The position numbers were made by a program, and so were the translations under genes. Below the pieces are notes generated by a model, which saw only the letters and a list, made by a program, of their open reading frames with translations, did no database searches and was not told the origin of the DNA. From Gordius sp. MW1 (Eukaryota > Nematomorpha > Gordioida > Gordea > Gordiidae), in the NCBI GenBank assembly GCA_964036665.1, contig OZ038526.1, positions 2,976,001 to 3,040,000 on the forward strand: DNA of 64,000 nucleotides, given 5' to 3'. Below, piece by piece: positions 2,610-55,600 of the stretch. Within the stretch, counting starts at the first letter, position 1. Every line of letters starts with the position of its first letter.

Positions 2610-3235
2610 TCCATATTTCTGTTTTTTTATTCAATATTAAACTTTTAAGGTTTATAATAAATTATAAGATGGTTCAACATGAAGTTTATGCTTGGTATAT
2701 TGGCCTCAATCCAAAAAGTAAAGAAACTTCATGATAAATGTTAATATATAGAACTGTTTCTGTTTTTTTATTCAATATTAAACTTTTAAGGTTTATAGTA
2801 AATTATAAGATGGTTCAACATCAAGTTTATGCTTGGTATATTGGACTCAATCCAAAAAGTAAAGACACATGTTAAATGTTAATATATAGAACTTTATATG
2901 ATTCCAATCAATCCAAAAATAAAGAAACTCCATGATAAATGTTAATATATAGAACTGTTTCTGTTTTTTTTATTCAATATTAAACTTTTAAGGTTTATAG
3001 TAAATTATAATATGGTTCAACATCAAGTTTATGCTTGTTATATTGGACTCAATCTAAAAAGTAAAGACACTTCATGATAAATGTTAATATATAGAACTTT
3101 ATATGATTCCAATCAATCCAAAAAATAAAGAAACTTCATGATGTTAATATATAGAACTTTACATGATTTTAATCAATCCAAAAAATAAAGAAACTTCATG
3201 ACAAATGTTGTTAATATATAGAAATTTATATAATT
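2610..3235. repeat. Tandem repeat, ~150-200 bp units with ~60-bp sub-units
   Basis: A unit beginning TTTTTTTATTCAATATTAAA recurs at about 2612, 2763 and 2963. It is followed by shorter repeats of a segment around AAAGAAACTTCATGATAAAT and TTAATATATAGAACTTTA. The copies differ by substitutions and small indels. No coding frame is shared between copies. Confidence 0.8.
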
Positions 3236-3499: not shown

Positions 3500-4690
3500 T
3501 TATAAATTTTAAAAAATGTGGTGCAAATATAAACAATCTATTATCAATATTCTCCACTAAGAATGGAGTTCCATTTTTAAGGTAGTGGCAATCTCAAGGG
3601 AGAATTATATCTTCAATTGTTTGAGGTATTTTAGGTCTGTTTTTATGAACAATTCTATTCAGTGTTTTGATCACGGATTTCAAAGACGGCAGAGCATGTG
3701 GGTATTGCCAAATATCCTCAACTTCTTCCCTTCTTTGGTAAATCACATCATTGTATACCTAAATAGATCAATTATTATAAGACCAAAGACATATATTTAC
3801 CTTTGTAATTGATTCCCTGAGACTATTTTGCATAGCCTTCTTTAAATTACTTTTTGTCAGAAGGCAATGATACTCATCAGGTTCATGGTTATGATTTTTT
3901 TTATTTTTGCTAAATTCTCAGAAAATATTAGTCTACAAGGACATTTTGAATGCCTGCATCGATAATAAGTGCAAGTTTTTGTAGATTTGTCAACTACATA
4001 AAGATAGTTATTAAGGACTAAAATGTTTTTCCCTTTTTGGGATGGCAAGAATGTTATATCTAAATTATAGTGTGGTTACATAAACTAAACATAAAATGAA
4101 TTTACTTTGGGTATTAACACGTGGTGTACAGGCCTGTTCAATGACATCTAAAGCATCATTGTTGGAATCTATTTATAAATAAGATAGTTAAACATTAACT
4201 ATGTTACATTGAATTATGTCAAATTACTTGCTACAATATCATTTGGTGAGTTTAATGTGGCATCTTGACTTGAATCTAAAATAAATAAGGATTTTAAAAA
4301 ATATACTCAAATCTCTTACTTCCATTAACATCTGATATAAGGGCTTGTTAAATATAATCTAATGAGTTCAATAAAATTGCTTCTTGACTTAAATCTAAAA
4401 AAAATTCAAAAAAAATACTAAAATCTTTTACTTTCTTGATCCTCTATGGGTATGGAGATATTTTTTACAACTAAATACTTAATTTAAATTATAAATTTCT
4501 TACTTTGCTGACTATTTCTGATGTTATTTGACAATTATTAGATTTAAGCACAACCCTTCCTGGGCATTGAAATTTACTGTACTTGCTGCACTTATAATAC
4601 ATTTGTTCATTTTTTCCCTCTTTAACATTGATATAATCATCATAGTTAAAGAGGGTTAAAATGTAATGTTTTCTCTTTGGTTTTTTAACC
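3500..4690 (-). pseudogene. Decayed FLYWCH/MULE gene (paralogue of the 9.5-13.2 kb gene)
   Basis: Two FLYWCH-type zinc fingers are readable: one at about 4690-4504 (YYKC...C.GR pattern) and one at 4062-3850 (PSQKGKN start, then YYRCRHSKC and HNHEP). Between them lie small exons with GT/AG borders (4394-4320, 4275-4228, 4168-4106), all starting after AG|AT and encoding S/N/D-rich peptides. Introns are 44-59 nt. Downstream, a ~42-nt intron leads into a helical segment ending in NGTPFLVENIDNRLF, which aligns with NGERFLLHNHDNRLL of the 10-kb gene. The MULE catalytic core is absent. There is an in-frame TAA in one linker exon, a one-base slip in the A run of the second finger and a TGA near 3580, so it is probably dead. 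The architecture finger-linker exons-finger-MULE start is the same as in the intact-looking locus. Confidence 0.75.
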
Positions 4691-5369: not shown

Positions 5370-8335
5370 AAGGCCCTTGGTCAAAACACCTTTGTACTAG
5401 TTTATCAGGGAGTGAGTTATTTTCACTGGACATCAGCAAAACAGAAGCTATACATAAGTCATTAGAAAGTCGATTGATGTTTGTATCAAGTATAATACTA
5501 TTCTTTTTTTAAATTCGCTCATTGCTTGAGCTGTTAGAATTAGTTCAACCTATTTTATTAGCCAAAATGTGACTTTTCTACAACTTTAAGTAACACAAAA
5601 GTGCCTAAGTAAATAAGCAAACTAGTTGTTCAAAATTATGTAATGAAACATTGAAAACATTTTACAATTGAGTTTGTTAACTGTTTTTGGCAGAATATAT
5701 TTATTTTGAAATACAATCTGACCATCATTTGTTAACTGAATAAAATGAGTTTCTAAGTATAGGGCCCTGCTCCCCTTACTTAAAAGCTTAACACAATGAG
5801 TTTTTTATACAAAAAATTTTTTTGCTTATAAGCTTAAAAAATAGGATCTTAAAAAATCTGTAATTTATAAAACATGATTATATGCTAGGTAACTTAATTC
5901 TTAGAATTATATATGGAATTGATTTCCATTTTTTAATTTAATTTATGTGAATACTAAAGTTTTGGTAGTTTTGATATGAATTAAATTTTTGATGTTATAT
6001 GATCTCTTATTGTTTCATATAGATATATTGTTCTTTTATTATAATTATATGCTAGGTTAAATAATTATGAAAATTAAGGGTGATCTAATTTCTAATAAAT
6101 GTCAAAGTTGCATATTTGTTAGGATTATATTCTATGTTAATTTATTAATTGTTTCATAGTATAACAGATTTGTAATCTTTAGTAGATGAAAGTCTTAAAC
6201 CTGGCTTAATCTATTCTATAGTATTTAATTTTATATTTTTAACCACTTAAATATTAGAATAATCCTACTGGGTATCAATCACACATTATATTAATTTAAA
6301 CCTTAGAAATTTAATTGTCATTTATTAATACTGTTGAGCCTCTTTATTATTTATAATTTATCCCTATTTGAATATTTTTTTTTTTTTTTTTTTTCTACAA
6401 TATAAAGAAACGCTAATGTTAACTTATATCCAAATTTTTTTTAATATTGAATTTTATAAATAACAATCAATTGTAGCATTTTTTGATTATTTTACCTTCT
6501 TTAGCGCTTATAATCCTGATTAATTTGCAGATTGTTGGTCTTTATAATTTATTCCCAATTCTAATTTATAATTAATTTATTTACATTTACAATAATTAAG
6601 CATGGAAATTATATCAAATTTATGTTAACCATCCAGTATTAGCTTTAAATAGTATAGCTTCTTTATTACAATTTATCGTTGTAAGAATTTTAATTATTCA
6701 AATCTTGATAAATAATTTAAAGTAGTTTGAGTACTCTTGCAATCCTATCTCACATATTTCAAAGTTAGAAGTCTATCCCCTAGACATAAGGCGTCAATAC
6801 TAATATACCGAGATAGGGACTAACCCCTTCCCACGCATTTACATTATTCGCACTAATATTCCTTCTCAATGGGTGGTCCGGACTTGATATCTCGAATCCG
6901 GTACAAAAGATAAAAATTCAGAAGACAAATATAATGTATGTATCAAAATTATTATGTAGAAATATCATATGATTTTAAATTAAATTTATATAAAATACAA
7001 AATGTAAATAAGATTTAAGTTTATTACTAAATGTATAACAAAAAGATAGAATGATTATAGATCGCTAAGAATAAATTTATATATAATTGTAAATAGGTTA
7101 ATATGAATAACAATGTTAAATCGTAAGGTATTCAAATATTATACTGCAATGTCTGTTGTGTATTTAAATTATAATGAGGGATGTGAATAAAGTCATCTAA
7201 ATCATAAAGGTACCAATGTTCTAATTAGGTAATAGTATATTATAAGTAGTTTTATTGTGTTATATGTTTTTTAAATGGATTATAAACATATAATAAAAAC
7301 AAATGCTACAAAATAAGTTTATATATAAATGATATATTTTTTAATTAAAGTTATATTACTACAAGAATACCATAAGGTTAATAAAAAGTATACTTGTTTT
7401 TTATACAGTATTATAGGTGATATTTAAAGGAAATTTTACAAATCTATAATAGATACAATATATTATATGTTAAACAAAATTGTTTAATATGTGCAACGAG
7501 TCATATTTCTATATGCTAGAGCTATAACTAATGAAGAAAAATATGGAAAACTTGAAGGTAATGTTGTGTCCTCCCCTATAGAAATTATCATATACAAACA
7601 TCTCCTCCTATAGAAATTATCATATACTAACTTCCTATACAAATCCCCCCACCCCCCACTGCGCTGCTATACAATACACACGCGTTGATAATCGATCACC
7701 CCCTCTCCGTACTTATATTCACAAGAGTTGTAAACTTGCGTATCTCATACCCCCCTCCCCCCTTCTATCTAGATACTTTAATTGCAAGTTCGTATCTTAT
7801 TTAGGTCGGATACCCCTTTTGATCCCGCATTAGCATAACATCTGTGTACTAATTTCGATATAGATTTCAGTAGTCCCCATTGTTTTTTACGCGATATATT
7901 AGAACCATCATTATTTCACTTGTAATATACAAAAGTTTTCACTTGTAATATACAAAAGGTAAGTCTTTTGTTTGCAATTTTCAATAAAATTTAATTTAAG
8001 AGTTTATGCTACAGAAAGTAATATCTGTGGCAGAGACCACCACTTTTCACAAAAACTTCTGATGATAAAAACATTTTTTAAATCACATCTTTCAAGGAAT
8101 GATAATATGAATCCGCATCTTTTCTTTGTGGGATTCTTTGGTTCGTTATTATGATACTTATATAATATTCTTCGCTGTTTACTTCGTCGATTCTTTGGGA
8201 ATTATTATATGTAGTTATAAAGATAAATTCGGAAATTGTCAGCCCCTACTATAGATATTCTCATACAGTGGTCTAAAGATATCTCCCCTCGCCTGTTTCT
8301 TAATGTAACCATAATTCGGTTTATTGCATTAAAGG
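5370..8335. other. AT-rich intergenic stretch
   Basis: Very AT-rich with a long T run at ~6380 and no convincing ORF. Around 7560-7640 a short direct repeat (CTATAGAAATTATCATATAC, twice) and C-rich patches occur. I see nothing else. Confidence 0.5.
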
Positions 8336-8339
8336 ACCT

Positions 8340-8818
8340 TTAAACAGTCGCCGTTGCCAAAGGTATTGTCATTAGTTTGGCACCGAATCGTTTCAACTCT
8401 TCATACCACAAATCGCATTTTTGAATAAATTTTAAAGGTGTTTCTGATCCATTCAAAGTAGCCGCAAGAAATTTGTTTGATTTTATGTCGGCATAAAGAT
8501 ATTCTTCGTCACCGCCGTGAAAATGACGACACATCATTTTTACATCTCTCGGATCTGTTGGAGCCTCTCAAAACTCTGGAAAAATGAGCATCCTGAAATA
8601 AGCTCAACTGCAGATTGATTGAACCTATATTAATTTCAGATATAAGTCTTAGTAAACTTTCCCAGAGATTCTTTGCAAGCTTTATTTTCACTAATGTCAC
8701 ATTTCAGTGATACTTTTGTCAATGAGGCATAATAATTTATAAAAAAAAGTTTTAAATTTTGCCCATGTTTTTCACTTTCAGAGACTGAGCAATCTGCCAA
8801 TACACTCATCTTTATCAA
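8340..8818 (-). CDS. Unidentified spliced gene (3' part uncertain)
   Basis: A minus-strand start at 8808 (MSVLADCSVSESEKHG...) reads to SLTK, then a GT...AG segment of 34 nt (8680-8713) splices in frame to LAKNLWESLLRLISEINI, giving a smooth amphipathic helical protein. After that two continuations are possible: straight read-through (GSINLQLSLFQDAHF), or a further 32-nt intron giving GCSFFQSFERLQQIRE. A separate frame downstream (8537-8340, RHFHGGDEEYLYADIK ... ending IPLATATV, stop at 8340) also looks coding, and AATAAA follows the stop. I do not recognise the family. Exon structure at the 3' end needs transcript data. Confidence 0.5.
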
Positions 8819-8839
8819 TGTATATTAATAAAATAAAAA

Positions 8840-9466
8840 TAACTTGCATAATTTTAATTACCAGCATTTTTATCATAAGAAAAAGAAGAGACAGTTTTCC
8901 CCAGTCCAGCAGAATTCCAATTCTCATCTTGACCTAAAACATGAAAATATATATAATACTTCTATATTAAAACCAAAATCTTTCTTGCCGATTTCAGAGT
9001 TCATGCGAATTTCACTGCTGGAAGCAGAATAATATCTGCCTTTAACTTATATATATTTAAAATATCTAATGCCTAAAAATAATTACCATAATTCCCCATA
9101 GTAAGGGATAAAACAAGAGTTTTTTTTAATTCAGTCCCATCTTTACCTATTACAAACAAACATATTCATGTCTTATTTTAAATAAACACAAATACCCATA
9201 CTTTATTAAAATTATTATAAATTAAATCATATCTACCATCTTCTTTAATGTCTAACCGCATTTATTAATTTTAAAAATTTATATGCAAAAAACAAACCAA
9301 TAATTTAAAATTAACGGTAGAGAATATAAAATTTATGTAATTTTTTTAAATGGTATAAGTCTCTTAAAACCTGGTAAATATTTTGCAAACTTAAGAAGTC
9401 ATATTCTACAACATATTTTAATTTTATTTATTGGAATTACACAAAAATATATTCATAAAAAACAAA
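8840..9466. other. AT-rich spacer
   Basis: Lies between two minus-strand genes. It contains no ORF with protein-like composition and would hold the 3' end of the MULE gene's transcript and the promoter of the 8.3-8.8 kb gene. Confidence 0.4.
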
Positions 9467-12400
9467 TTAATTTTGACTAGGATTTTCGTGCGATTCTAAA
9501 TGTAAATAGCTCGCGATAGTATCGGAATATGAAAAAATATCAGTATTATTACAATTGCTTTTATAATTAGTGATAAGTCTATTTATTTGCGAATTAATGA
9601 TTTTATATTTTTTATTATCCTCGTATATTTGCTTTCCTTGATTTATGTGTAGCATGTTTATGTCGTTTTTTTCCTGTACGGCTAACAGGTTTTCAATAAA
9701 TTCATATATGACGGGATGGGCTATCCCAATCAAGCATTTTAAGGCATGGTGAAAGCCTTCTAGATGGTTGTTGGTACGAGGGCCTTCGGCGTGAACCCTT
9801 TCCCACATAGTATATGGAAAGATTGCACTGGGTCCTACCCAAGTATCTTTAATATACTTAAACCAGTCTGAGGCCTCTGGTATCAGACTAATTTGCGATA
9901 TGCAATCGTTATACAACAAAATAACGTGATCAGGTAACAAAAAAGGCACAGCTAATATTCGTCGTATGAGTCTAGATCTGATAGGCCCAGTGTCCGCATT
10001 TTCCGGAAGATCGCCTGCGAAAAATGGAATAGACAGCCTTTTAAAATTAGTATAAAATGTAATCATCGTACCTTTAACATCAGCATCAGGGAATGAATCC
10101 CGCAAAGCCCTCACACTGGCTTGCTCAAAATCCACTTGTACATACCGAGGACGAAGTGTTAAAGAATATTGAGTACACAGATCTTTAATAATCCCAAAAA
10201 GCAAAGAATATGAGGTTTGACATTTATCGGGTAAAAGGGCAAATATCACAGGAACCATGTGATCCTTGATATAACAATGTACAGTGTACACCTATAGGAG
10301 TGAAAATAACAATAAATCTGTAAAATAAATATACTTGTTTGAAAAGTTGGGGACATACATAGTATGTCCCATCAGCATATAAATTTCCCGCTTCGCATAA
10401 AATTTTCAAATTTTGGGGGGTACCAAATACTAACAATCGATTATCATGATTGTGCAGTAAGAACCTTTCCCCGTTGTTTGAAAATCTATGCTCTGGACGA
10501 AGCATTATATTATTCTCTTTGGGGATTGGGTATCGATTGATAGTCATTCTCTTTAACGTAATTTTTACTGATTTCAGGGTAGGGGTAGATTTTGGGAAAA
10601 ATTTTAGGTCGGGGACATCCCGCAGCCTTTGCGCAATCACTCAATGATATATCGAGGACAATTTTTCTTTAGGATTGTTAAGAACTTCCGTTTTTAACAT
10701 ATTTATAGTCATAAGGAACTCATAATCGCCTCGAGGAGGCTCATGATAATGGTCCTTGGTGACCGTTGCAATCTCAGTCACCTGAGCTTTCCCTTGGCAT
10801 CTTTTGCTACGGCATCTATAATAAGTCGTACCATTGGAATGTTTTATTTTATTATATAAATATCCTCTGAAATAGAGAATTACACCCTTTTTTTGAGATG
10901 GTAAAAATCTCATGGCTGTAAACAAATATTAGCTATTTATAAGAATATAAATAAGTTACGGGGGCATGTTGCTTGGATATTTTGACAAGCATCTAATAGG
11001 AGTTGGGCATCATTAATTGTTACACTGGGACTTGGTGTCAGATTTGTAATGGACGATAATGGTCTATAAGAGACACTGGAACATGAATTAAGAACTAAAT
11101 AAAAAATATACAAAACTCAATCATAAATTACTTGGAGTCATATTTGTAATAGAGGTAGATGTTGTATAAGAGACATTGGGACTTGGTGTCAGATTTGTAA
11201 TGGACGATAATGGTCTATAAGAGACACTGGAACATGAATTAAGAACTAAAGAAAAAATATACAAAACTCAATCATAAATTACTTGGAGTCATATTTGTAA
11301 TAGGGGTAAATGTTGTATAAGAGACATTGGGACTTGGTGTCAGATTTGTAATGGACGATAATGGTCTATAAGAGACACTGGAATATGAATTAAGAACTAA
11401 AGAAAAAATATACAAAACTCAATCATAAATTACTTGGAGTCATATTTGTAATAGGGGTAAATGTTGTATAAGAGACATTGGGACTTGGTGTCAGATTTGT
11501 AATGGACGATAATGGTCTATAAGAGACACTGGAATATGAATTAAGAACTAAAGAAAAAATATACAAAACTCAATCATAAATTACTTGGAGTCATATTTGT
11601 AATAGGGGTAAATGTTGTACAAGAGACATTGGGACTTGGTGTCAGATTTGTAATGGACGATAATGGTCTATAAGAGACACTGGAATATGAATTAAGAACT
11701 AAAGAAAAAATATACAAAACTCAATCATAAATTACTTGGAGTCATATTTGTAATAGGGGTAAATGTTGTATAAGAGACATTGGGACTTGGTGTCAGATTT
11801 GTAATGGACGATAATGGTCTATAAGAGACACTGGAATATGAATTAAGAACTAAAGAAAAAATATACAAAACTCAATCATAAATTACTTGGAGTCATATTT
11901 GTAATAGGGGTAAATGTTGTATAAGAGACATTGGGACTTGGTGTCAGATTTGTAATGGACGATAATGGTCTATAAGAGACACTGGAATATGAATTAAGAA
12001 CTAAAGAAAAAATATACAAAATTCAATCATAAATTACTTGGAGTCATATTTGTAATAGGGGTAAATGTTGTATAAGAGACATTGGGACTTGGTGTCAGAT
12101 TTGTAATGGACGATAATGGTCTATAAGAGACACTGGAACATGAATTAAGAACTAAAGAAAAAATATACAAAACTCAATCATAAATTACTTGGAGTCATAT
12201 TTGTAATAGGGGTAAATGTTGTATAAGAGACATTGGGACTTGGTGTCAGATTTGTAATGGACGATAATGGTCTATAAGAGACACTGGAATATGAATTAAG
12301 AACTAAAGAAAAAATATACAAAACTCAATCATAAATTACTTGGAGTCATATTTGTAATAGGGGTAAATGTTGTATAAGAGACATTGGGACTTGGTGTCAG

Positions 12401-13161
12401 ATTTGTAGTGGACGATAATGGTCTATAAGAGACACTGGAATATGAATTAAGAACTAAAGAAAAAATATACAAAATTCAATCATAAATTACTTGGAGTCAT
12501 ATTTGTAATAGGGGTAAATGTTGTATAAGAGACATTGGGACTTGGTGTCAGATTTGTAATGGACGATAATGGTCTATAAGAGACACTGGAACATGAATTA
12601 AGAACTAAAGAAAAAATATACAAAACTCAATCATAAATTACTTGGAGTCATATTTGTAATAGGGGTAAATGGTCTATGAGCCAAAGAAGTTCTAAAGTTA
12701 TCAAAATTTAGCACTATAAAAGTTTTTAAATGGATATATCTTTAAAGAAAACTAACCTCGAATATTTGAAGGATTATTTGAAGAGAATCTTACAATTGAA
12801 CTTGTCACAGAGGCTATTATAAAGTTTAAAAAAAATCAAAAATATTTACTTTCATTGCTTGTTATATTTACTATTAAATTTGGAATAGTAATAGCTTGTG
12901 TTATTCCTGCTATAAAATAGATATATAAAATAAAGGACTATAAAACATTATACTTTTATGTGGTATATCCAAATGTGCTTTAGTAATAAAATATGTGGTC
13001 CCATGCTTTATTGCTCTCCCTTTACAATTTGAATTACGGCATCTAAGGTATATTTGACCGTTTTTTCCTTCATTGTATTTTACATAATAAAAATTTTGAT
13101 AAAAAAAAAGTTCTTTCTTCCTCTGAGTTAACATACCTATAATAAAGATAATAAAAAACAT
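9467..13161 (-). CDS. FLYWCH zinc-finger / MULE-transposase gene with tandem exon array
   Basis: Minus-strand exons, read with GT/AG borders and conserved phase 1: FLYWCH finger 1 (12954-13134; YLRCRNSNCKGR), linkers 12850-12909, 12757-12813 and 12642-12713, ten 114-nt repeat exons (12491-12604 down to 11132-11245, period 151), junction exon 10960-11094, then 10335-10915 with FLYWCH finger 2 (YYRCRSKRCQGK, H.H) and the transposase N-terminus. Next come 10072-10291 and a last exon from 10037 to the stop at 9467. MULE signatures: LYADGTYYVCP (first Asp), YVQVDFEQASVRAL, CLFHFSQAIFRKM after a 34-nt intron, PRTNNHLEGFHHAL. Two lesions: an in-frame TGA at 10641-10643 (a C-to-T change would explain it) and a frame slip near 9955-9990. 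All 15 upstream exons are open. Likely nuclear and DNA-binding. It could be a mobile MULE or a host gene derived from one; no TIRs were found. Confidence 0.8.
10960..12642 (-). repeat. 151-bp tandem array = duplicated exon + intron units
   Basis: Exact period 151 bp. In each unit the minus strand reads TTTCTTTAG | 114 nt | GTAATTTATGATTGAG. The 114-nt blocks are at 12491-12604, 12340-12453, 12189-12302, 12038-12151, 11887-12000, 11736-11849, 11585-11698, 11434-11547, 11283-11396 and 11132-11245, with partial units at both ends. Each block encodes 38 residues made of two ~19-residue sub-repeats (VSYRPLSSITNLTPSP and VSYTTFTPITNMTPIL), rich in Ser/Thr/Asn/Pro. Copies differ by single substitutions only; none shifts the frame or destroys a splice site. 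Introns (37 nt) are almost identical as well, pointing to recent expansion or homogenisation. Confidence 0.92.
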
Positions 13162-13204
13162 AATTTCTAATATACTAGTTTGAAAATTTGAAATTCTTCA
13201 CTTC

Positions 13205-13270
13205 GAAAAATTAATGATGATGTGATGATGATGTGATGATCAATTCATGATAACTCATGATGTGTTAATG
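13205..13270. repeat. Degenerate TGATGA microsatellite
   Basis: Repeated TGATGATGTGATGA-type units upstream of the minus-strand FLYWCH/MULE gene and just before the LINE. It may be part of that gene's promoter region; nothing further is visible. Confidence 0.6.
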
Positions 13271-14441
13271 ATGAGTTGCCTTTTGTAAAGTTGCCTTTTG
13301 ATCGGAAACGGATATCTCTCCCTCCTCCCACTCCCTATTCTCACGCTTACTACAGGCAGAAATCCTACCCATCTTACTATGGTTGTTTATGCTTTTCCTT
13401 TTTACCCCCAACCCCCTCCCCTTCGAGAGTATTCTCTATGTGCAAGACAAGAAATAGCTACTCTATATTATACAAATTTATTATTCTCCTGCTTACGCTC
13501 CCGGAAGAAATCTGGCGTCATTACCCAAATATGAATTTAAAAATAGGTCGAGGCGCCCTCTTATTAAAATATTTCCCTACAAATATGGGGTTATTACCAT
13601 TAATCAACTGCCTGTACAAATACTTTCTAAAATGCTATAATATATAAAAACTTTTACCCTAATTCACCACACTTGATGATAATGTCTAACACTCTCAGTG
13701 AGTCTATTAAATTTTACTTCGGAAATAAAGATCAATTTATTAAACGGGTTTAATTCTGTCCCGACTCTACAATGGAATTTGCTACGGGCCGAGTCGGATT
13801 TCTTTGTTTAAAATGGTCGAGCACGCAATCCCTTTATTATGCTCCGACGGAATGTTGTCCCGACATCATTTCTATAATTTCAAGAAATGTAGGCTCAAGA
13901 GTTCTAGTTACATTGGAAAGATATAGTTTTTACGGGCTTTAATAAGTTAAGGTTAGAGTAAATAGGCTATTATGGGTACGTCTAGTTATTGCCTCTCCGT
14001 TTTAATTTTTGCCTGGTGTCGTTGTTTTAAAAAAATAAGATTTTCTATTGGCGTTAAAGCTGTTGCCCCGTTCCCCTCCACGTCTATTTCTTGCGAGCAG
14101 TCATAATGTAGCTACTCTATTTTTAACAAATATATTATTCTCCTGCTTAATGCTCCTGGAAGAGATCTCCTTCAATACTAATACGCACGATAAATACCAG
14201 AGGGAAGTAGATTGGCGCCTTCTCTATAAGGATAAGTCTAAGCCCACCCCTCTTCAAAAAAGGTCTTATTTATATTCAGTAATTTAAATACATTCTCACT
14301 TCTGAATTTTTAACATTATACGAAACACAACTACGTTTGATTTCAATACCTTTCATTTCTGCCAGCTCATTAAGGATTAAAATTCATTGTTAACTCGGTT
14401 CCATTCCACCCCGACTTTCAAACTCTTATCCTCCAATTATA

Positions 14442-17361
14442 ATGATATTAAAACTCGGATCTTTAAATACCCAAACGCTAAGGGAACCAGGTTCCTTGCA
14501 GGCCCTTACTTTATTTGCCTCCCACCACTGCATCCACATTTTCTGCGTCCAACAAACAAGATACCCACATCGAAAAGTCCTCCCCGTTAACGATTATGTT
14601 TTCTACGCCACCGAGTCTGGCCAAGAATCTGCAACAGGGGTGGGTACATTTATCAAACGCGACCTCAAGGTTATTAGCGTTGACTACGTGAACAATAGAC
14701 TTTTAATCATTCACCTACAAATAAAAAATCGGTGTGTTTCAATTTTTAACGTATACGCTCCCCCCTCTTCCAAAAATTTTCAATCGATGGAATCCCTCCT
14801 GCAAAACATCACAGATAAATTGAAAGCTAAACATATTAATATCCTCGTTGGTGACTTCAATGCCTCCGTCCAACGATCACTGGGGGATAATAAATTGGTA
14901 ATTGGCCCTAATTCTATAGGTCCGACTAACCGAAATGGCAAACTGCTCAAAAAATTCTGCCACAATCACAAACTAAAGATAACCTCAACTTTTTCCGACC
15001 TTCCTCTAGAAAACCTAATCACATACCAAAAAAACGAAAATCACCGAGGTACCCAAATTGATCATATAATATGCCAATTAAGAAACCACAAAATGATAAA
15101 GAACTTTCACACCATTCAGCCTATCTTAAATACAGATCATTTTGTAATCGTAGCAGATCTCTTTATTAATCCCTCCTCTCTCCACACGTCAAAAAAACTT
15201 AAAAAATACCCATCTGGAGCTAACATAATCAGAGACATCTCTCAGCTTGTGCCCTCATTACAAACAGCCTCGAAGTCACTTGGGGATCTTGCCCCTCTCT
15301 CAGTCAATGACCATAATGACTTGCTAGCGAAGTTTTTTACCCCATCCCAGAGTAACCTTCATGTCAACATCAAGTCCTGGTTCTCCATCGATACCATTAA
15401 TTTACTCGAGACCCGTTATAACGTTTTTAAGGATAAGACACTTAGAAATAAAAAAGCATGGGTCCAAGAACTCACAAAAAAGATCAAAGCTGCAATAAAA
15501 AAGGACAAGGCTAACTACTTATCAAGCAAACTAAAAGAAGCAGAATCTGCGGCTCGTACTAACAATACACACACCCTTTACAAAATTCTAAGGAACATCA
15601 CCGCAAAATTTGCCGATAAACATAACTACAACACAATACAAAATGAACACAGCTCCAACGATTCTTTGATCCAAACCGAGGCTTGGGAGAACCACTTTCG
15701 TTCCATTCTAGATCGCCCTTACTCAATCCCCTGTTCTGACATATTCCTTGACTTTATTAACAACTTTAAAACACCGACCACCCCTTGTATCAGATTAGAA
15801 CCTCCCTCCATGAATGAAATAAAATCCGTTTTAAAATCCCTCAAACTTCATAAAGCTCCTGATGCAGACAGAATCACAGCTGAAGCCCTTAAGGCTGATT
15901 ACACCCTGTCTAGCGAACTCTTACATCAACTCTTCACAAAAATCTGGCAACAAGAGCTCATCCCTCACGCTTGGTCTACTGGTCTACTTAGTAAAATCTA
16001 TAAAAAAGGAGACCCATCTCTTCCCGACAATTATAGAGGGATCACAATCATAAATAACATTTCCAAGGTTTTTATAAAAATAATATACAGGAGGATTTAT
16101 CCATTCATTGATGATAATTTAAAAAGTAACCAAGCCGGCTTTCGTAAGTCTAAAACCACAATTGAACATATCCTTACCCTTAAAAATATTATTGACATCT
16201 CCTCTAAATCTAAATCACCTTTAGTGCTAACATTTGTCGACATTCAAAAAGCTTTCGACTCCCTCTCCCATCTTTACATATGGGAATCTTTATGCCTACT
16301 AGGAATTCCAAAAAAAAATTATTAGACTTATTTTCTTTCTCTACAAGGATATGAAAGTGGTCATAAAACATCTACACCACCGCTCAAACCCGATCCAAGT
16401 CAATTTAGGAGTTAGACAGGGATGTCCACTATCTCCTCTACTATTCATTACGGCAATGGATCTCATAATAAAAAGATCCACCCTGCCTTTCGACGGTCTC
16501 CACATGAACGGCACCAAACTGTCTTCACTGCTTTTTGCTGACGATTTATGCATCGTATCAGATTCAATTCTTAAAACACAGAACTTTGCCGATAGGTTCG
16601 TCTTAGAATGCAAGAAAGCCGGTTTAATAATTAACCCAATCAAGTCTAACATGCTAACTATTAACTTACCCCACCAAAATACTACCTTGATTATCAACAA
16701 CACATTAGTTCCCTTTTCAGATTCAATAAACTACTTAGGAGTGACCCTTTCTTCAGATACATACTCCCACCAAGATGCCTCTAATAAAATAGCTAAAGCA
16801 CTAAAGAGATTTTATTCCTGCTATTCGATCTGGAAATCTCACGAACTAGCTCTACCAACCCGCCTCCGTCTATTCAAAACCACCATACTACCGGTATTGC
16901 TCTATGGATGCGAAAGGTGGTCCCTAAAAGGCCCGACTCTTAAAGCTGCCCAAACCAAACTTAACAAAATGCTAAGAATAATTTGTAAAATATTCTACCC
17001 AGTTGTAATTAGCAACCCAAACCTTTGGACCCTTTGTGAAATCCCTCCCATTAAAAACATAATAATATCACGGAAGTGGAACTTCTTAGCCCACCAGACT
17101 AGACGCAATGGACTAAACATTTGCTTAAGATCAATACTATGGAGACCGCCCCAACTAAGAAATCTAAAATGTCGAGGATCCTGGATCCACAAAACTTTCT
17201 CTGAACTCCGCTCTCTCAACCACGAGTGGAATACTATAATCCCCATAATGCAAAACAGATCCGCTTGGAAAACCTTCTCTGCCTCCAATTTCCCCACAAA
17301 GTATCCCCTCCCGGCCGCCTCAACTTCGAATAGTCTCTCAACTCTACTACATCCCAGATAG
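14442..17361 (+). pseudogene. LINE endonuclease-reverse transcriptase ORF (one frameshift)
   Basis: Residues ~1-260 are an APE-type endonuclease with GSLNTQTL, VGDFNAS and GTQIDHIIC. The motif usually written QET reads QQT here, so the catalytic Glu appears replaced by Gln. The reverse transcriptase follows (residues ~450-800) with intact FADD. The frame breaks in a nine-A run at 16310-16318: upstream the protein ends ...GIPKKNY, and one base fewer would continue as IIRLIFFLYKDMK into the second frame (from 16351). Otherwise there are no internal stops over ~2.9 kb, so it is young but probably inactive in cis. Confidence 0.92.
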
Positions 17362-17424
<63 letters not shown>

Positions 17425-18388: not shown

Positions 18389-19657
18389 CACCCGCAAGAT
18401 CAGCTGTTTATGGCTCTCCGTCAAGTTTATAAGTTACCCAAGGATTTGATAACAACTTGGTATCCGAAGCATATGGCTAATAGTAAACTAGTTAATATAT
18501 GCGTTGAATATAAAAGGCATGAGAGAAATGCAAGCAAAACTAAGAATCATAGACATTGTTATTGAAGTACATGATGCTAGAATACCTTTTACAGGAAGAA
18601 ATCCTAATTTTGACCAATTACTTAGTATTAAACCAAAAGTATTAGGTATATTTATCAATTAAAAATAGATGTTTTCATAGTATTTAATAAAAAGGACTTG
18701 GTGGATACTACGTATGAGTACAAAATCATAAATAAGATTTGTTTTAATGAAAAAGAGTTTTTAAAAATAATATTTGCCAGTGCAAATGATCCTAATACAA
18801 GCACTTTTAAAGATATCATACCCATGGTAATTGATTTTGCTAAAAGTGGTAATAGGTAAATTTTTAAATTGTTTTTTGCATGGAATTAGATTTAATCGTA
18901 CAGGGAGTAATGAATTAAATCTGATGGTTATTGGTATCCCTAATGTTGGTAAATCTTCCATGCTAAACTTTCTGCGTAATAGATATCTAAAAAGAAAAAA
19001 GGCTTCAGCCGAAGGTAGAAAATATTATTTTAATATAAACTTATTCTAGGGCCTTATGCTGGTGTAACAAGGTCAGTCTTAAATAAAATTAAAATACATT
19101 CTGATCCTAAGATATATGTCATTGATACCCCTGGTATAATGACACCCCATTTCAATAATTCTGAATCTTTAATGCGATTGGCACTGTGTGCTGCTTATAA
19201 AGACTCTATATTAGGTGAAGAATTAATCTGTGATTATTTGTTGTATTGGCTAAACAAAAGGCACCTCTATGACATCTACCTTAAAAATCCAAAATTATGC
19301 TCGCCTCCAAATTCAGAATCACATAACCTGCTTTTAGATAAGATACAATCCTATGTCCCAAATCAAAATATGGATGAAATATCTGAGAATATTACATTTG
19401 CTAACGCACACATATCACCTAAACCTATTGACAATTATATTGAATTTCTCATGAGGGTTGCAATATCAAATGGTCAATTTAGGAAAGTTAAAAAACAGGC
19501 TGATTCAACAAATTTACATACATTGCACAATTTTGCATATTCTATTGATCCTCATTATGAACTTAGACCTGACATTTCAACTGCAGCCAAATATGTGCTC
19601 AAACTATTTCGAAGTGGGCAATTGGGAAGATTTCTGTTAGATGATGATATGTTATAG
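18386..19657 (+). CDS. MTG1: Mitochondrial ribosome-associated GTPase 1
   Basis: Five exons: 18386-18482, 18517-18645, 18681-18855, 18890-19014, 19050-19657 (stop TAG), giving 377 residues (369 if ATG 18410 is used). Introns are only 34, 35, 34 and 35 nt, and the splices reproduce the alignment with animal MTG1 without gaps. Circularly permuted GTPase order as in the YlqF/RbgA family: WYPKHM entry, [14 protein letters not shown]4 FNKKDL, G5 ASAN, G1 [10 protein letters not shown]3 DTPG. The C-terminal helical domain ends [16 protein letters not shown], as in homologues. The protein assists late assembly of the large mitoribosomal subunit at the inner membrane. The start is ambiguous: both ATGs are in frame, with a stop at 18368. 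It looks intact. Confidence 0.93.
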
Positions 19658-37500: not shown

Positions 37501-40500
37501 GTCGTTCTATAATGTATAATCATAGTCTATTTCTATTCCAAATACACTAAGTTAGATTATTAAACAAAATGTTTTGTTTTTTAAATCTTGTCATTTGTAA
37601 GAAACAATGAAAAATGGCTAGCAATAGCCCCTCTTCTACTAGCCCCGACCTAGAGAACTGCACGGGTGACCCGAGACCCGACCCGACCCGGGCCCGACCC
37701 GACCCGGGCCCGACCCGACCCGGGCCCGACCCGACCCGGGCCCGACCCGACCCGGGCCCGACCCGACCCGGGCCCGACCCGACCCGGGCCCGACTTGACC
37801 CGGGCCCGACCCGACCTCGGGTCGGGTCGGGTCCAGGTAGAAAATTAGAAAATGATTTCGGGTCGGGTCGGGTCGGGTCCGGGTAAAAAATTTGAAAATG
37901 CTTTCGGGTCGGGTCGGGTCAAATTTATAGAGTCGGGTCCAAGGTTTATACATTGTAAAAAACACGCGAGACCTATTTTTTTAATTAATGTTAATTGCTA
38001 AGCAAAGAGTGTTTTTAAATATCGAAATGCACAATTAATTTGGATCATTCATTTATTTAATTCTCTTCCTCTTTTTTTAAATTTTAAAACTCCAAACTCT
38101 GAAGTGCTAGCTAATTCTCATCACTAATTCAAACTACATAAATTACTCATGTTTTTAATTTGACTATTAAAAGGTAAAGTATTTCAATAAAGTTATATTT
38201 TAAATTTTTTTAGTGTTAACAGTGAAGTTTTAGCTAATCCTCATCGTTAATTTAAATTACATTTAATACATAGCCAACTTAAATGTAAGTTATAATTTTA
38301 TAAATTTTTCATGTGCAATTTTTTTTATAATACCTTATAATTATTTTAAGGTTTCATATCAAAAGAATTTATCTTAAATTGCACTTCAAACTTAAAACAT
38401 TTGGACAGTCACTATAAATTTCATCTTATTTACTATATTGATTATAATCAGCTATATATTAATGGTTTCATAATAACAATAAATGGATGTTAAATAGTTG
38501 TCTCAAGTCTATAACATATGAGCAGTTTACTTGATATTAGGAAACTAAATATAGATAAATAATTATGAGTTTTTTTTCACCATCCCCTTTAAAGAATACA
38601 AATCATCATGGCTTTTATTAATCGATTTAATTTTACACACGGTAATTTTCGCGCTCGAAAGTAATTTTTTTATAATTTTTCGGGTCGGGTCGGGTTCGGG
38701 TTGAAGTTTTTAAAAGGCTTTCGGGTCGGGTCGGGTTCGGGTAGAAAATTTGAAAATGATTTCTGGTCGGGTCGGGTCCGGGTAGAAAATTTGAAAATGA
38801 TTTCGGGTCGGGTCGGGTCCGGGTAGAAAATTTGAAAATGATTTCGGGTCGGGTCGGGTTCGGGTTGAAAAAAAGTGACTTTGCAGTTCTCTACACCCCT
38901 ATTTTCATGAACAATTAAGATGTTATATTGCATATAAAAATTTAATCATTAGAAGGTTTTTATATAAAAAATCTCCCTTTATAAGATAAAGTTAAATTAT
39001 TCCAAAACATACAGCCAAACAATTTTTATGTGCGAAATAAAAAAATTTGTCAAGGCTACTAATAGCCCCAAAAAATCGTTTTTTCTCAATAAAAATTTTA
39101 AATTTTTTTTTAAACAAAAAATTGTTGACTTATACCTTATGGAAAAATACATATATGGTTTAAATTTTGATTTAATATCATTATTATTTTAAAAAATAAG
39201 TATAACCCCGATCTACGATTAGTCCCGGTCTCCCCTACGTGACAAATTTGGCATAGAGACGTTTAAGCTTAGGTTCCTTTAAAAGCCACTATAGATTATA
39301 ATCAAAGGATTTAGATAATTTCCTAAAGTAAAACTTCTTTTTATACCAAATAGCGTTAGTTTTATCGTATAAAATATCAAAATAATTAAAAAGAAATTCT
39401 AATTTATCTAAAATTTTATTTAAAAAGAGCCATTAATTAATTAAAGCGGACCAAAGCCTTTGCACATTTATATTGTCGAAATTCATGGTATTGCTTTACC
39501 ACCGCTTTGACAACAGTCCCATAAATCTTCATAGAGCTCGAATACAAACATAGTTGACTTCAAAAATAAGTTGCACAGCGTAAAATTTGTGCACAAGCTA
39601 CTAAACCTTATTTATAACATCGATGATAAATTCTTACATAAGTATTTAAACAAAACGATCACATTAAATGAACTTAAAGTATGTTTTTATGATAAGCACA
39701 TTCGGGTAAAAAGTGTCACTCTAGATATTAATTAACACGGATTATGTTAGAATTAAAAGGCGGCCTTTCGACCGAGTAGTTCCTATTTTTTTTAGCTTTT
39801 ATTGAATTTAAGATTTCTTTATAGCTATAATTTTCATTTCATCCAGTTTTAGAGCATTCGAAACATTTACAGATTAGAGATCTGATTTTAGATTAAAAAT
39901 AAAACGTTACTGACGCTCTTATGCTACGCTACGCATGTGTGATGAAAAGAAATTTGGAAATCATTCAAAACTGTAACAACATTGCTAAAATAAGTCGCGC
40001 TGCGAGATGATATAAGGAGATGTGTGACCGAAATTATTAAAAGATATATTCAGAGATATGCTATATTTGAACAAATAGATAGGGGAGACCGGGGCTATTT
40101 CGACCGTAAAAAATAGAAAAGACCTAGAAAACATTTTTCAACCGATTTTCATATACTTTTTCCACAAAAATGTTCTTGGCTACAATGTTTATTTGAGGGG
40201 AAAATATTATAGCAACACAGTTGATCTATTTTTTATAGTAAAGCTTTCAAAAAAGACAACACGTATAACTTTGAAAAATGACCAGGTTCAACGTGTTTTT
40301 CAAATTGAGCTAAGGTGTCCGCTCTTGTTTAAAGTCAAAAATGTATAAATAACTTAAGTGCATGTGCTTAAATCGCTAAAATATAAAAAACTTTTAGTTT
40401 TATAAATATAATAATTTTTTAATGAGATAAATGTTAACTTAATTCATCTGTTCAACGATTTCCTTTAAACTGATATCATTTTTTTGCCCCCAAAAATGAT

Positions 40501-49667: not shown

Positions 49668-52600
49668 TTAGGCGAAGGTTAGTCCGGCATCCTTGTAACT
49701 CGTGAATATTTTGTCGATGGCGTATATGAAGGCAGCGGTCCTGACGTCGAGCCCGAGCTTGTGTTCTTCCATAATTCGTACGATGTTCTAAGGGTTTATA
49801 ATATTTGCAACAACAAAAATTTTTCATTAGGACTCAAAATTATTAAAAAAATAACATCTAAATTGTGACTTTACCCTTGCAGATCGTTCCATAGTGTATT
49901 CCAGACCGGAATGGACGATATCCTTTTCAGAGGCACCCTGTCATTAATAGAAACGCAATAGGTATGAGCAATTTTAAAAGCGATCGATATCGAAAAACTA
50001 TGTTAAATTAGCTGCTCACCGCGATACGTTTTTGGAAGGCTGCGGTGGGTACTATGGGGATATCACCAAATTTATTAGCCAAGGACTCTTGCACGCTCCC
50101 TGTACCATAAATAAAAAAAAAATTTTTGTTAGAATTGGTTAGATGCAATTGGAATTGTTTTGAAGATAAAACGATATCAAATTTTAGTTCCTTTCAGATT
50201 CATTTCTAAAAAAAGCGGTATGCACGAAATTGAATAAAATTTGTCATTTGCTTTAACAATGTTCCCAATAATTTATAGATTTAATCAAAAGGCGAGAATA
50301 AAATTTAATATAATGCACTTAGCAAATCCTTATTCAATGTATATTAAAGTAATAATTTTATTGGATATTGGGATGCGAAGTAAGGCATCACATTAATTAG
50401 GAGGTTATAACTTCAATATCAGAACTTCGTCCCCAGCGTATTGCTAAGCGATTTTTCTATAAAATTCGCTTTCACGTACTTAAGAGTTGGTAGTTGGAGT
50501 CGCGTTCGTATTTGAAGTGCAGCCGTCCATAACTGACGTGGTTGAGGTTCTTGAGCCATTCGAAGTAGGAGACCGTAACGCCGCCCGCGTTTATGAATAG
50601 GTCGGGTAGCACTAACACCTTCTTGCTCAGTAAGAGGGAATGGGCTTCGGGAGTTATGGGACCGTTGGCACCTTCGGCAATCACCTACCCCGCGCATTTA
50701 AAAATGTTAAACATTAGTGATGTTAACATGGACGTAGCAAAGGGTAGAGACCTGCAAAATCGATTTTTTTAAGGCCCTGCCCGGCCCGGAATTAAAATGT
50801 GGAAATAGGCCCGGCCCGGGCCCGTATTTTAGCATTTTTAAAAACAAGGCCCGAGCCCGGCCCGGGCCCGGAATTTTAGTAATTGCAGAAACTTAATCAA
50901 ACTTAATTTTGGTAAAAAATTTTATTAAATAATAAAACGCACATAAAAAAAATTATAAAATGATAATAAAACTATTTTGAAGCAAAAAAACACATGCATC
51001 AAAAATTTCCGTGTTTTAGATTTGTTCTCCGCTCTTCATAAATGCTGCCAGCTGACGAAAAACACCTCTCACTTGAGGCCAAATCAGGTGTCAAAAAAAA
51101 TCTTACAAACAAGAGGGCAAAGCGCTAGAAATGCCCACTGTGGTCTTTCGACCAATCCGATAATTTTATTTTTTTCTCGTTGATCTTTAACTTTGTGTTG
51201 GTGTCAACTTCATTTTCTCTACCTCTTTCTTCATAGAAGATGTTTCATGCCATATCCATTCTACAAAATTGGGCTATTGAGGATATGAGTTCTTTTTTGA
51301 TTTTTGCAAGATTTGTAAGTTTTGCTAAAAGTGGCTTGCATAGGTAATTGTCCAATTTTTATTTTCCGGGACTTCTTTACAGCATTTATGTTTTTGGAGA
51401 TGGGTGTTCCATATTAAGCATTATCAAAACTAACATAAATATTGCCTATGAGCAGGAATTATAGAATAACACATTCCTGCAAATCTTACAAAAAACCAAA
51501 TTTATTTTCTAATAATCTTTTCCATACTTCACTCTTTTCTCTAAGATTTTATTTTACTTTATAAAATTCTTTCTGAATATTTTCAGCTATTAGCAGTAGA
51601 TTTTTTTTGTTCCATACTTAATTGTTTGTATATTAGAATAAGCGCGAAATGAATAAATGAGTGTTTAACAGCTTCAATAACTTGTAATTAATTTTTTGAA
51701 ATATTATAGATTGTTTTAAACAGAATAAAAGACTACTTTAAATTAGTCCGGGCCGGGCCTATAATTTATAAATTAGGCCCGGCCCGGAATTTTAAAGCCT
51801 AAAAATTTAAGGCCCGAGCCCGGCCCCGGGCTTTTCCGGGCCGGGACTCGGGCCGCCCGTGCAGGTCCCTAGCAAAGGGGGAGGGCAGGGTGGAGCGGCG
51901 GCTGCCCCCCTGTAAATCCAAAAATTTGTTGACCCTCCATAAATAATTATTGCCTCCCTCTAATCACAATGCTGGCTACGCCCATGGATGTTATTTAGGG
52001 CGTCTTTATAGGCCTACGCTGTTGAAAGGAATAAAGAGACTTAGTACCATCACCATCAAAAGAGTCTATCGTGAGAAACGCGTCCCTAGTCTAGGCATGG
52101 GCGTAGCCAAGGGGAGGCAAGAAGGAGCGATTGCCCCCCTCTTCCTTATAATCTCATATAATAATGGCTAAAATTTCAAAAATTGTCATTTTGCCCGTCC
52201 TAAATCATAATTGCCCCCCTCTAATTCCACTCATGGTTACCCCCATGAGTCTAAGGTCCCTTATTTAGTAATCCCCTCCCCTATGATCCTAAACCTTAAA
52301 TAATATTACTATGATGGGGCGAGGGTTTTAATTTTGTAGTGCCATATTTTCTAGCAACACCTAACCTAACCATTCGCAGCATTTTACAGTATTATTTTAT
52401 TAGCACACAGTTGTTAGTTATACATATTGGCACTAACCACAGCCTAGCTAACTCTGTTGGTTTGCACCACACGCACATTTGAATTCCTCAAAAGGAAAGG
52501 AGACTTATGCACACCATAATATCACGCCGCTAACAGACCCCTCAGGGCGCCCATTACCTAAATAGTCACAATTTAATTGGCCCTTAATTAGTTATGGTGG

Positions 52601-55600
52601 CCTATAGACTATGCCAAAGAGACGTTACCATAACGAAACGACGAAAATTATTGGTAAAATTATTAACAAAATAGAACGTTATCATCTCGTAGGTTGCGCC
52701 GAACACTTGAATGGCCTGCCTTAAATTTGAGCGTATAAGTTTGACCTATAACCCTTTTTCAAAAACAATTCTTTTTCACCTTACATCTAACTCAATATAG
52801 CCTAAAGCAACAGTCGCACTAAATTTAAAAAACAAATGAGTTTGACTTCTCACCGCCTACCTAGCTATTAATCTGCTCCTGAACCTTGTCCTAAAACATA
52901 GAAATTGCTAATGTGCAATCGTGCGATCGATCATGTTAAATTCTCAACTTAATTTTGGCACGAGGCAAAACGACTCACTTTGGCCTTGATTTTGTTGGCG
53001 TTGAATTTGTTGATGACCTTTTCACCGGCCGCGGGAATCAGAATGTCGCATTCGTCGAATATTAGGTTGCGATCTTTAACCACTTCGGAACCCTTGAAAC
53101 CGAATATCGTTCCGTGACTCTGTATAAGAAATATCACGGCAATTATACACGAAAAGGGGATAGGACCGAAGTCCATACTTGCCCCTACGATTGATTGTAT
53201 TTAATATAACGTGAAAACAATCCTTTTGGTCCTTTAACTAAACGCCTACGAAGATAACCGGCTACGTATAAGATAAATGTGCATAATCGTCGATCGTAGT
53301 ATTATGTATAACTTGGTGGCCTTTTCACCGACCAAAACCCGAGTTTTTAGCAAACAACTTTTCGGTCAGTCATACATCGAAACCATCTACGACCCTATGA
53401 GTTAATGGCAAAATTTGGAGTTGTTAAGGCTCGGGGTCCTTTAAAAAAAGTGTTTTTGCACAACGGAGGTGGTGAAATTAGTGCGTACGATTTTGTGATC
53501 TTCCAATTCTTTGGGGTCAATACCGGTGGGACAACTGATGCCACCGTCCTTCTCTTGTACCCCGATACACTTGGCGCCGGCCCGATGGAGATATCGCATG
53601 GAATGCATGCCCACGTTGCCAAAACCCTGAACGATGAAAGTTTTATCCTTGAGCCCTGGCTTTAGGCCCACGACGTCCATGAGGCTCTTTTGGTTGACGA
53701 AATTGTCCAAACCGTGGTATAGACCCTGCAGCAACAACAACAAAAAATTGTGTGAATGATGAAAATTTATCCGCTTAATTAACCCTCCGTTGGTCAGGTC
53801 AAAATCCTAACACGGATGGTAAAGGGGGTCATGATGACCCCAAACTTTTAATACCTATAACATTGTTGTATTATGACATAAACTTCAAAAGCCTAATACT
53901 ACAACTCTTATCTGTAAATTGATATATTAATCTGGGTATTTGAACAAGTGGTTATAATTTTATAATTACACAAAATTTCCCCCTATGTGACTATATTTAT
54001 TCATAATAATTTTTTCCCCCCAATTTCATAATTTAATCTATAAGATCATATAAAATAAGGTTGGAACTCATGGGCGTACGCAGGGGGGGGCGGCTGCCCC
54101 CCCCCTTATTTGAAAAAAAAAATTCAATACAAAAACCCTAAAAAAATTATGTTTTGCCCCCCCCCCCCAATTAGCCAGGGGGGCAGGAAGTCCGGCTGCC
54201 CCCACTGCCTAATTAGGGGAGTTGCCTTTTTTTTGGTCATGGATGTCGAGACCTTTTTTTTGCTCTCAAGAAATTTTTTGTTTTAATCTGCCCCCCCCCC
54301 TTCTAATTCAAAACCTGGGTAAGCACATGTTGAAACTATAAAGAAAATTTGGCATAAAAAAACCTAAAAAAAAAATAGAGATGTCCAAAGTCCAACCAAA
54401 CTTAGGGAATTTTTGGCCCTATGTTTTTAGAGTAAAAAAGTTACTACTATTCTTAGCCATTATTTTTCTAATTTTTGGACTTCAATTAAATTTTTTTAAT
54501 AGAAATACATTATAGAAGGTTAGAATTAAGAATAGCAAAAAAATCTAATTGTAAAATCTTAAAACAAAAATTTTATGAGACTCTAAAAATAGTGAATTTT
54601 GTGTAAAAAATGAGATTTCCTACAAGTTTTCTTAGTTTAAAATTTAAATAATTTTGGATTGAAAAGGTAAAGTTTAAAATAGTCAGTTTATATTAAACAA
54701 TGGTAATATAAGTTCATGATTTTTGTAAATTTGGCATAAAAAAAACATCAAAATAAAAAATTTTTTGTAATAAATGAGACTTTCTACACAAATTTAATAT
54801 CAAATTTAATTTGTTTTAAATTATCAAGAAAGTTTTAATTTAGTTACTTTATAAAAAGACATTATATAAGCTTATTAATATGATTTTTTAGTCTATTAAA
54901 TCCTAAGCTACTATAATATTAACTATAAAGTATAAACTCCTCCAACTAATATTTATTTATTTGGGACCACTTGACAAAATTTTATCTTTTTTTTATTTAA
55001 ATACCATCTTCAGACAAAAAAAATCAAATATATAGCACTTATTAATGTTAGACATGTTAAGATATCAAAATGCACAGGAAAATTTACGCAAATGAGCGCT
55101 TTTAAATACCACGTGGAAAAATAAACATGTTAAAATCTGAGTTTAAAAGTTAAATATCTCAAATAAAAGGAGACGTTTAGACAAAAATTCCTTTACAAAT
55201 AGGTGAAGAATAATGGTTTATGATAAAAACTTCAAAAAAAATGTTGAAGATTTTTTTGTTTCATATAGTGGAAGGTGGGGTCCTGGAAGACCCCGGGCAT
55301 CTAAAAGACGCTGTATCTTAAAACTATTTGATAAAAACAAACCAAATTTTGCAGTAAGCTACTGTAAGAATGAAATTATAACAATCACTAACTTAATTTG
55401 TACAACCTTAATAAACCGCTTGGGGTCCTTATTGACCCCACCTAGCCAACGGAGTGTTAACGTAATTAACGCTCGCGTCCCCATTAATTTATTAAACAAA
55501 AATAACATAATCAACGCTTTATGTATAGGATTAGTCACCTTTTTAAATAAGGCCGACTATTAAATAAGTGCCATTTAAGTTAAGAATTTTTATCTTTATA

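Follow-up and report, generated by a model that had tools for sequence, protein, structure and literature searches.

An intron-bearing, very probably coding minisatellite in a FLYWCH-MULE transposase gene of Gordius sp. MW1

Introduction

Tandem units of an exon together with its intron are known from host genes such as spider flagelliform silk, apolipoprotein(a) kringles, and NBPF, in which units of hundreds to thousands of base pairs are homogenised together. The PRDM9 zinc-finger array is an in-frame coding minisatellite of variable copy number that has no intron per unit. Here, a 151-bp tandem repeat is described from a 64,000-nt stretch of the genome of Gordius sp. MW1 (contig OZ038526.1, positions 2,976,001 to 3,040,000, catalogued as G000:C8:2976001-3040000 and called the window), which would form, within the linker on the N-terminal side of a FLYWCH-MULE transposase, a coding minisatellite whose units each include an intron. 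The genome searched for relatives comprised 211.8 Mb in 12 contigs.

MULE (Mutator-like element) transposons produce target duplications of 8–11 bp. Muta1 of Aedes aegypti has 504 amino acids and one FLYWCH finger at 24–92, with Muta target duplications of 8–9 bp (PMC5225508). The minisatellite of Rehavkus is placed before the 3' terminal inverted repeat (TIR) in the text and "in Cterm" in a table, and that of aphid Phantom after the transposase open reading frame (ORF) (PMC6446971). Features of Phantom/Muta (PMC5225508, PMC6446971) that recur here are a FLYWCH finger ahead of the catalytic domain, target duplications of 8–9 bp, and a D-D-E motif, the last read in a young family of this genome and in a Gordionus protein; the FLYWCH finger that characterises Phantom/Muta was found in the window at 10913-10644 (PF04500, 34.5 bits). 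The window element differs from Muta1 by a second FLYWCH finger further upstream and by a linker of many exons that contains a tandem array. With Rehavkus and aphid Phantom it shares a minisatellite within a MULE-type element (PMC6446971), but its array lies upstream of the catalytic domain, is predicted to be coding, and contains introns, which are not mentioned for the other two (PMC6446971). A PHD finger, which is described for Rehavkus, was absent from the Pfam matches of the scanned pieces, and the array lies 5' of the catalytic domain and not before a 3' TIR, so that the element lacks these two marks of Rehavkus.

Compared with silk, apolipoprotein(a), and NBPF, the units found here are mostly 78–238 bp long, lie in transposase genes, and occur with several different repeat sequences. 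In PRDM9 the repeat is the DNA-binding part, whereas here it is a linker with one intron per unit. No intron-bearing coding minisatellite in a transposon was found in the mostly open, partly accessible literature on MULEs, minisatellites, tandem exons, silk, and nematomorph genomes. FLYWCH MULEs, minisatellite MULEs, and host exon-intron repeats are all known; a minisatellite-scale unit of coding exon plus intron in the transposases of many families is, as far as the literature was searched, a new combination.

The array and its gene

Tandem Repeats Finder (TRF) reported a repeat at 11022-12671 with a period of 151, 10.9 copies, and 98% matches. The original prediction had read this repeat on the minus strand as 114-nt exons separated by 37-nt introns in phase 1-1, and cutting at the acceptors recovered ten such units. 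Complete units are 151 nt long (n=10; starts 12604, 12453, and so on to 11245), and the array exons extend to 11132. The intron of each unit has 37 nt and reads GTAATT..TTTAG. Units carry 0–4 substitutions relative to the consensus, GT/AG is kept in 10/10, and exon and intron alike are nearly identical among the units. When units 1–10 are spliced and joined to the 114 nt from 11094, the three frames contain 0, 23, and 24 stops; the unspliced minus-strand array contains 27, 31, and 30. The gene was modelled by hand from the ATG at 13134 and consists of the following parts:

12954..13134, minus strand: exon 1 with the ATG at 13134 and the first FLYWCH finger (PF04500, 25.0 bits, cut-off 23.6); entered in phase 0, donor GTATAA
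12850..12909, minus strand: linker exon 2, 60 nt, phase 1-1 (hand model)
12757..12813, minus strand: linker exon 3, 57 nt, phase 1-1 (hand model)
12642..12713, minus strand: exon 4, 72 nt, a partial repeat unit at the 5' array edge (hand model)
11095..12604, minus strand: the array, ten units of 114-nt exon plus 37-nt GT..AG intron (TRF, acceptor-cut units, hand model)
10960..11094, minus strand: exon 15, 135 nt, a partial unit at the 3' array edge plus the unique linker INDAQLLLDACQNIQ (hand model)
10644..10915, minus strand: second FLYWCH finger and transposase start (PF04500, 34.5 bits at 10913-10644), open until the TGA at 10643-10641

All 15 introns between the 16 exons are GT..AG, and the phase at entry is 0 for exon 1 and 1 for each of the 15 exons after it. 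The partial flanking exons and both FLYWCH exons were thus found in one frame as predicted, with both fingers above the cut-off. The predicted open frame holds through the array and both fingers, and it ends at a TGA at 10643 that had gone unmentioned. The model used for the window stops there; that of a gene-model script, which knows GT..AG and stops and no repeats, was discarded for its implausible introns, one of which skipped the TGA. A motif resembling INDAQLLLDACQNIQ was seen by eye immediately N-terminal of the FLYWCH finger in P0001, a protein of Gordionus (Nematomorpha). The array lies between two FLYWCH fingers in the window, and the gene models of two relatives (L047 and L049) also begin with first-finger sequence before the array.

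The 114-nt exon had been divided into two sub-repeats of 19 residues each. It is better described as sub-repeats of 63 and 51 nt (21 and 17 residues), because a relative, L013 (91–95% identical to the window over aligned unique stretches), carries exons 63 and 165 nt long, separated by the same intron of 37 nt. Since each unit consists of an exon of a multiple of three nucleotides with phase 1 at both ends plus one full intron, gain or loss of whole units keeps the frame and the splice sites, which agrees with the predicted change of copy number without loss of frame.

Introns of 37 nt are ordinary in this host. Those of the HSP60 gene have 35, 34, 37, 35, and 36 nt, and those of the CCT genes mostly 36–41 nt and some 47–48 nt where the joined frame reads as a known protein. 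These genes were identified by Pfam family and beyond that by eye, and two of the six loci modelled (L061 and L063) yielded no clear protein and were left unused. The suspicion that the repeat intron is too short to be genuine was rejected, as the HSP60 and CCT introns are equally small, and because of this same size the host would be expected to splice the array introns. From the sequence, the array is judged to be real, coding, and very probably spliced.

The insertion that carries the array

The host element is a FLYWCH-MULE transposon, of which the following further parts were located:

6894..13310, minus strand: whole MULE insertion, about 6.4 kb, with ends common to three other insertions and the target duplication GAGATATC
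9467..10640, minus strand: transposase region with the MULE domain, in two stop-to-stop frames (10224-10640 and 9467-10291)
7561..7956, no strand assigned: nested insertion, absent from L009, L010, L011, and L013 (all four other copies aligned there)

The ends at 13310 and 6894 recur in three other insertions, each with unrelated flanks, and the termini of the window insertion match each other over a short, imperfect stretch. Target duplications were found by eye in three of the four insertions examined (8 bp in the window, 9 bp in L009 and L010), and none was seen by eye in L011. The two transposase frames may be joined by an intron. They contain the motifs DG, VDFE, and NNHLEG, and PF10551 scored 25.5 bits on 9467-10291 and 26.3 bits in L047, both slightly below the cut-off of 27.6. 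The catalytic triad was read as D-66-D-122-E in a copy of a young family described below and as D-66-D-121-E in P0001. A homologous Gordionus protein (35%) is assigned PF10551 in the database listing. A transposase query gave at least 152 matches in the genome. Eight proteins matched the transposase, seven from Gordionus (31–40%) and one from an ENA record; taken together with the glutamate dehydrogenase described below, this points to a host that is probably a horsehair worm. Six stretches in viral contigs fitted a pattern for viral relatives of the transposase, and none of them was confirmed. A protein search with residues 525-639 of the spliced model, which cover linker and FLYWCH2, gave 26 candidates, none of them at E <= 0.01. 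The TGA at 10643 is replaced by a sense codon in L010, L011, L013, L047, L049, and L050, all six of the eight compared relatives that align there.

Turnover of units in related copies

Arrays of the window's 151-bp repeat were found in four other genomic places (L009 to L012; family A). Full units number 10 in the window, 7 in L009, 5 in L010, and 4 in L011. Because these insertions are 97–99% identical over aligned stretches and differ in the number and make-up of their units, the view that the array has expanded or been homogenised recently, which was part of the original prediction, is supported. L009 contains six identical units in succession. L010 and L011 have a transposase deletion in common, and their unit strings are similar, one unit apart in length. 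In L012, some units are 148 or 149 bp long, and the acceptor AG of one unit is changed.

The latter locus (G000:C1:3194000-3203999) was also seen to consist of two 5' halves of the window's element, inverted and fused at the array, without the transposase part. Two further loci about 92 kb apart, L014 (C5:6683000) and L015 (C5:6590500), show the same pattern of matches and probably represent a segmental duplication including MULE copies.

In a young family, a 431-bp FLYWCH exon stretch had 25 matches in the genome with about 100% identity. The copy at C7:6438400-6444689 has 17 exons between 18 introns; 16 of the 17 exons have 78 or 132 nt and are open in the phase-1 frame, one 80-nt exon is broken, and the introns have 29 or 32 nt with TACTAA in every one. 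Its predicted protein begins with the array, and no first FLYWCH finger was seen in the copy read. Array spans ranged from at least 785 to at least 2,860 bp across 23 matches, counted from rows of at least 87% identity among the listed part of 266 matches; array rows were present for 24 of the 25 anchors, and an outlier of 3,675 bp, in which two arrays are joined, was dropped. Many matches of this family stand head to head, and C7:6438400-6444689 (L068, L067, L045) holds two genes, each with its own array, diverging from a near-palindromic centre.

Arrays in other MULE families

The feature belongs to many related elements and not to one gene. Uniqueness to the window locus was rejected, as arrays of the same repeat occur at L009 to L012 and other arrays in many MULE families. 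TRF was run on 17 gene-oriented sequences and 30 further loci, some of which are the same places. In many families, tandem arrays were found to precede the catalytic exon; their periods include 92, 98, 101, 110, 123, 151, 155, and 237. L022 and L031, among others, had no tandem array by TRF in the stretch examined.

Sixty TRF units were tested against a fixed rule, which demanded an acceptable donor and acceptor, an intron of 25–60 nt, and an exon of a multiple of three nucleotides that is open around the circle. Arrays upstream of the MULE domain passed in 33 of 44 cases on the gene strand versus 1 of 44 on the opposite strand, with 7.5 predicted from shuffled units; arrays elsewhere passed in 0 of 11 cases (0.5 expected). 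For these counts, five arrays at duplicate loci were removed and three arrays of oppositely oriented genes were flipped (30/44 versus 4/44 without flipping). Five of the 11 arrays counted as elsewhere were assigned by hand, including both of L021, which are upstream by position and carry the repeat of window 2706-3158; when they are counted as upstream, the figures become 33/46 versus 1/46 and 0/9 elsewhere. By family label (n=14), 11 pass with each array or with the main array. Family E (L043, by hand) fails with 3 of 7 pyrimidines at the acceptor versus the 4 required, the 237-bp unit of family J fails, and in family M one of three arrays passes, on both strands.

Exon by exon, 118 slots were read in 29 sequences including the window, of which 106 are multiples of three and 102 are also open in the shared phase-1 frame. 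Loss of frames and splice sites in related copies had been named beforehand as what would speak against the prediction, and these 102 of 118 slots show how widely they are kept. For each family, a single intron pattern was used to read the slots, and it was fitted once that family had been inspected; gaps below 20 or above 260 nt were dropped, and introns in 236–238-bp units were missed by the pattern. The reading took 29 of 48 gene-oriented sequences and left out, among others, six duplicates or parts of joined copies as well as L036 and L054, in which arrays are present. The repeat-blind script recovered runs of array exons in phase 1 for the window, for L056 and L034 (six exons each), and in part for L055; in L051, only the first linker exons were followed. 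Among ten repeat peptides (45 pairs), only C-F (z 8.4) and G-I (z 3.0) were alike, and the content of S/T/N/P/Q was 44–69% in all ten.

Interpretation

The array is most readily explained as a coding minisatellite that has one intron per unit and lies in the N-terminal linker of a transposase of the FLYWCH-MULE type, and together with the mechanism proposed here, this account as a whole is regarded as highly probable. Unequal exchange or replication slippage between units would lengthen and shorten the arrays, and neighbouring exons might fuse by deletion between CAAGT direct repeats, which would remove one intron and 12 nt and keep the frame. The product would be a disordered Ser/Thr/Asn/Pro-rich tether beside the DNA-binding finger or fingers, whose length would be free to vary, so that expansion would be tolerated and mainly frame-breaking changes removed. 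Exons of a multiple of three nucleotides in phase 1-1 with introns of about 35 nt would in this way turn a gene segment into a minisatellite whose copy number drifts without frameshift. A satellite-like array could hence code for protein and still be free to expand, since each duplication copies an exon along with its intron. Genes of this kind could be overlooked where repeats are masked; P0001, listed with FLYWCH and MULE, begins, by eye, within the linker stretch that corresponds to the one after the array.

Several observations weigh against this account. The window copy is decayed, with the in-frame TGA at 10643-10641, and L010 and L011 have a stop codon in the first unit. The fixed rule is failed by 11 of the 44 upstream arrays, and these 44 fall into families and are not independent, so the Fisher value was not used. 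Most passing units still pass in 12–37% of shuffles, and a single passing array therefore proves little. The repeat-blind script skipped the array in L029 and L048. Substitutions between units, whose comparison had been proposed with the original prediction, were exclusively nonsynonymous among the nine distinct 114-nt exons of the window family (0 synonymous and 74 nonsynonymous differences over all pairs), and purifying selection, tested on these unit differences, was not found within that family. The ratio of nonsynonymous to synonymous differences (pN/pS) was 1.15 in family E and 0.91 when the 63-nt exons were taken from L013 and L014 alone, and reading the 63-nt exons of family B in a wrong frame gave 0.54 versus 0.58 in the proposed frame. 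Lower ratios were obtained for the 60-nt exons of family B (0.44), for family D (0.48), and for the 63-nt part of family A over all copies (0.60), next to the 0.58 of the B 63-nt exons. All pN/pS values come from small numbers and non-independent pairs, and the figure for family G was left unused because of a wrong intron; given the high values in E and L013/L014 and the wrong-frame value in B, they prove little. Constraint on the units would be mild and past at most, and relaxed in the decayed window family.

How much the length of the tether matters is where the explanations diverge. Short-intron linker exons might simply expand like any minisatellite, as neutral passengers whose length has no function and whose frame is kept only where the transposase is needed, a possibility with a chance just short of even. 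It shares the spliced coding array with the account given above and denies only a role for length. The nonsynonymous drift in family A and the weak signs of constraint elsewhere are in line with it, and the 148- and 149-bp units and the lost acceptor AG of L012 would fit release from constraint; yet a common demand or tolerance is suggested by the fact that arrays ahead of the catalytic part have expanded in many families, share one phase, and encode peptides with 44–69% S/T/N/P/Q in all ten compared. At the other end, the MULE transposases of this lineage might have a dedicated hypermutable segment, in which linker exons of symmetric phase 1, separated by introns of some 29–44 nt, repeatedly grow into arrays that differ in sequence between families, and whole-unit changes provide frame-safe, fast variation of tether length, serving the spacing of target or ends or escape from silencing. 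This idea is tentative and rather doubtful.

A role at the level of DNA, with arrays kept as repeated binding sites for transposase or transcription and the open frame a by-product of descent from exons, is unlikely. It could draw on the TIRs of the active Muta1 of Aedes, which carry nine copies of a 12-bp subterminal repeat (PMC5225508), and on the minisatellites listed for Rehavkus and aphid Phantom (PMC6446971), as well as on the near identity of both exon and intron between window units. The Muta1 repeats are terminal, however, whereas the arrays described here sit between coding exons, and frame and GT..AG are kept while the array sequences differ between families. That the repeat is a plain non-coding satellite with frame and splice signals arising by chance was rejected as extremely improbable: although the shuffled window unit passes the fixed rule at a rate of 0.215, one joint frame runs from the ATG through both fingers, 102 of 118 exon slots share one phase, and passing arrays are distributed 33/44 to 1/44 between gene strand and opposite strand.

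Other features of the window

A further FLYWCH finger (39 bits) lies at 3899-4051 on the minus strand, in a different repeat that has several equal-scoring matches in the genome. At 14394-17424 on the plus strand, an element resembling a LINE (long interspersed nuclear element) has two overlapping frames for endonuclease and reverse transcriptase; after it comes a stretch of 47 T, not A, on the coding strand. G+C-rich minisatellites of the GGGTCGGGTC type occur at 37668-37920 and 38678-38871 in this A+T-rich genome, and similar arrays are present in L013. The window also contains, at 18492-19657 on the plus strand, what is presumably an MTG1-like GTPase gene, and at 50475-59760 on the minus strand, host glutamate dehydrogenase exons spread across about 9 kb. 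The encoded glutamate dehydrogenase shows 75% identity to its Gordionus sp. counterpart and 58–68% to the others among the 120 of 7,998 matches listed.

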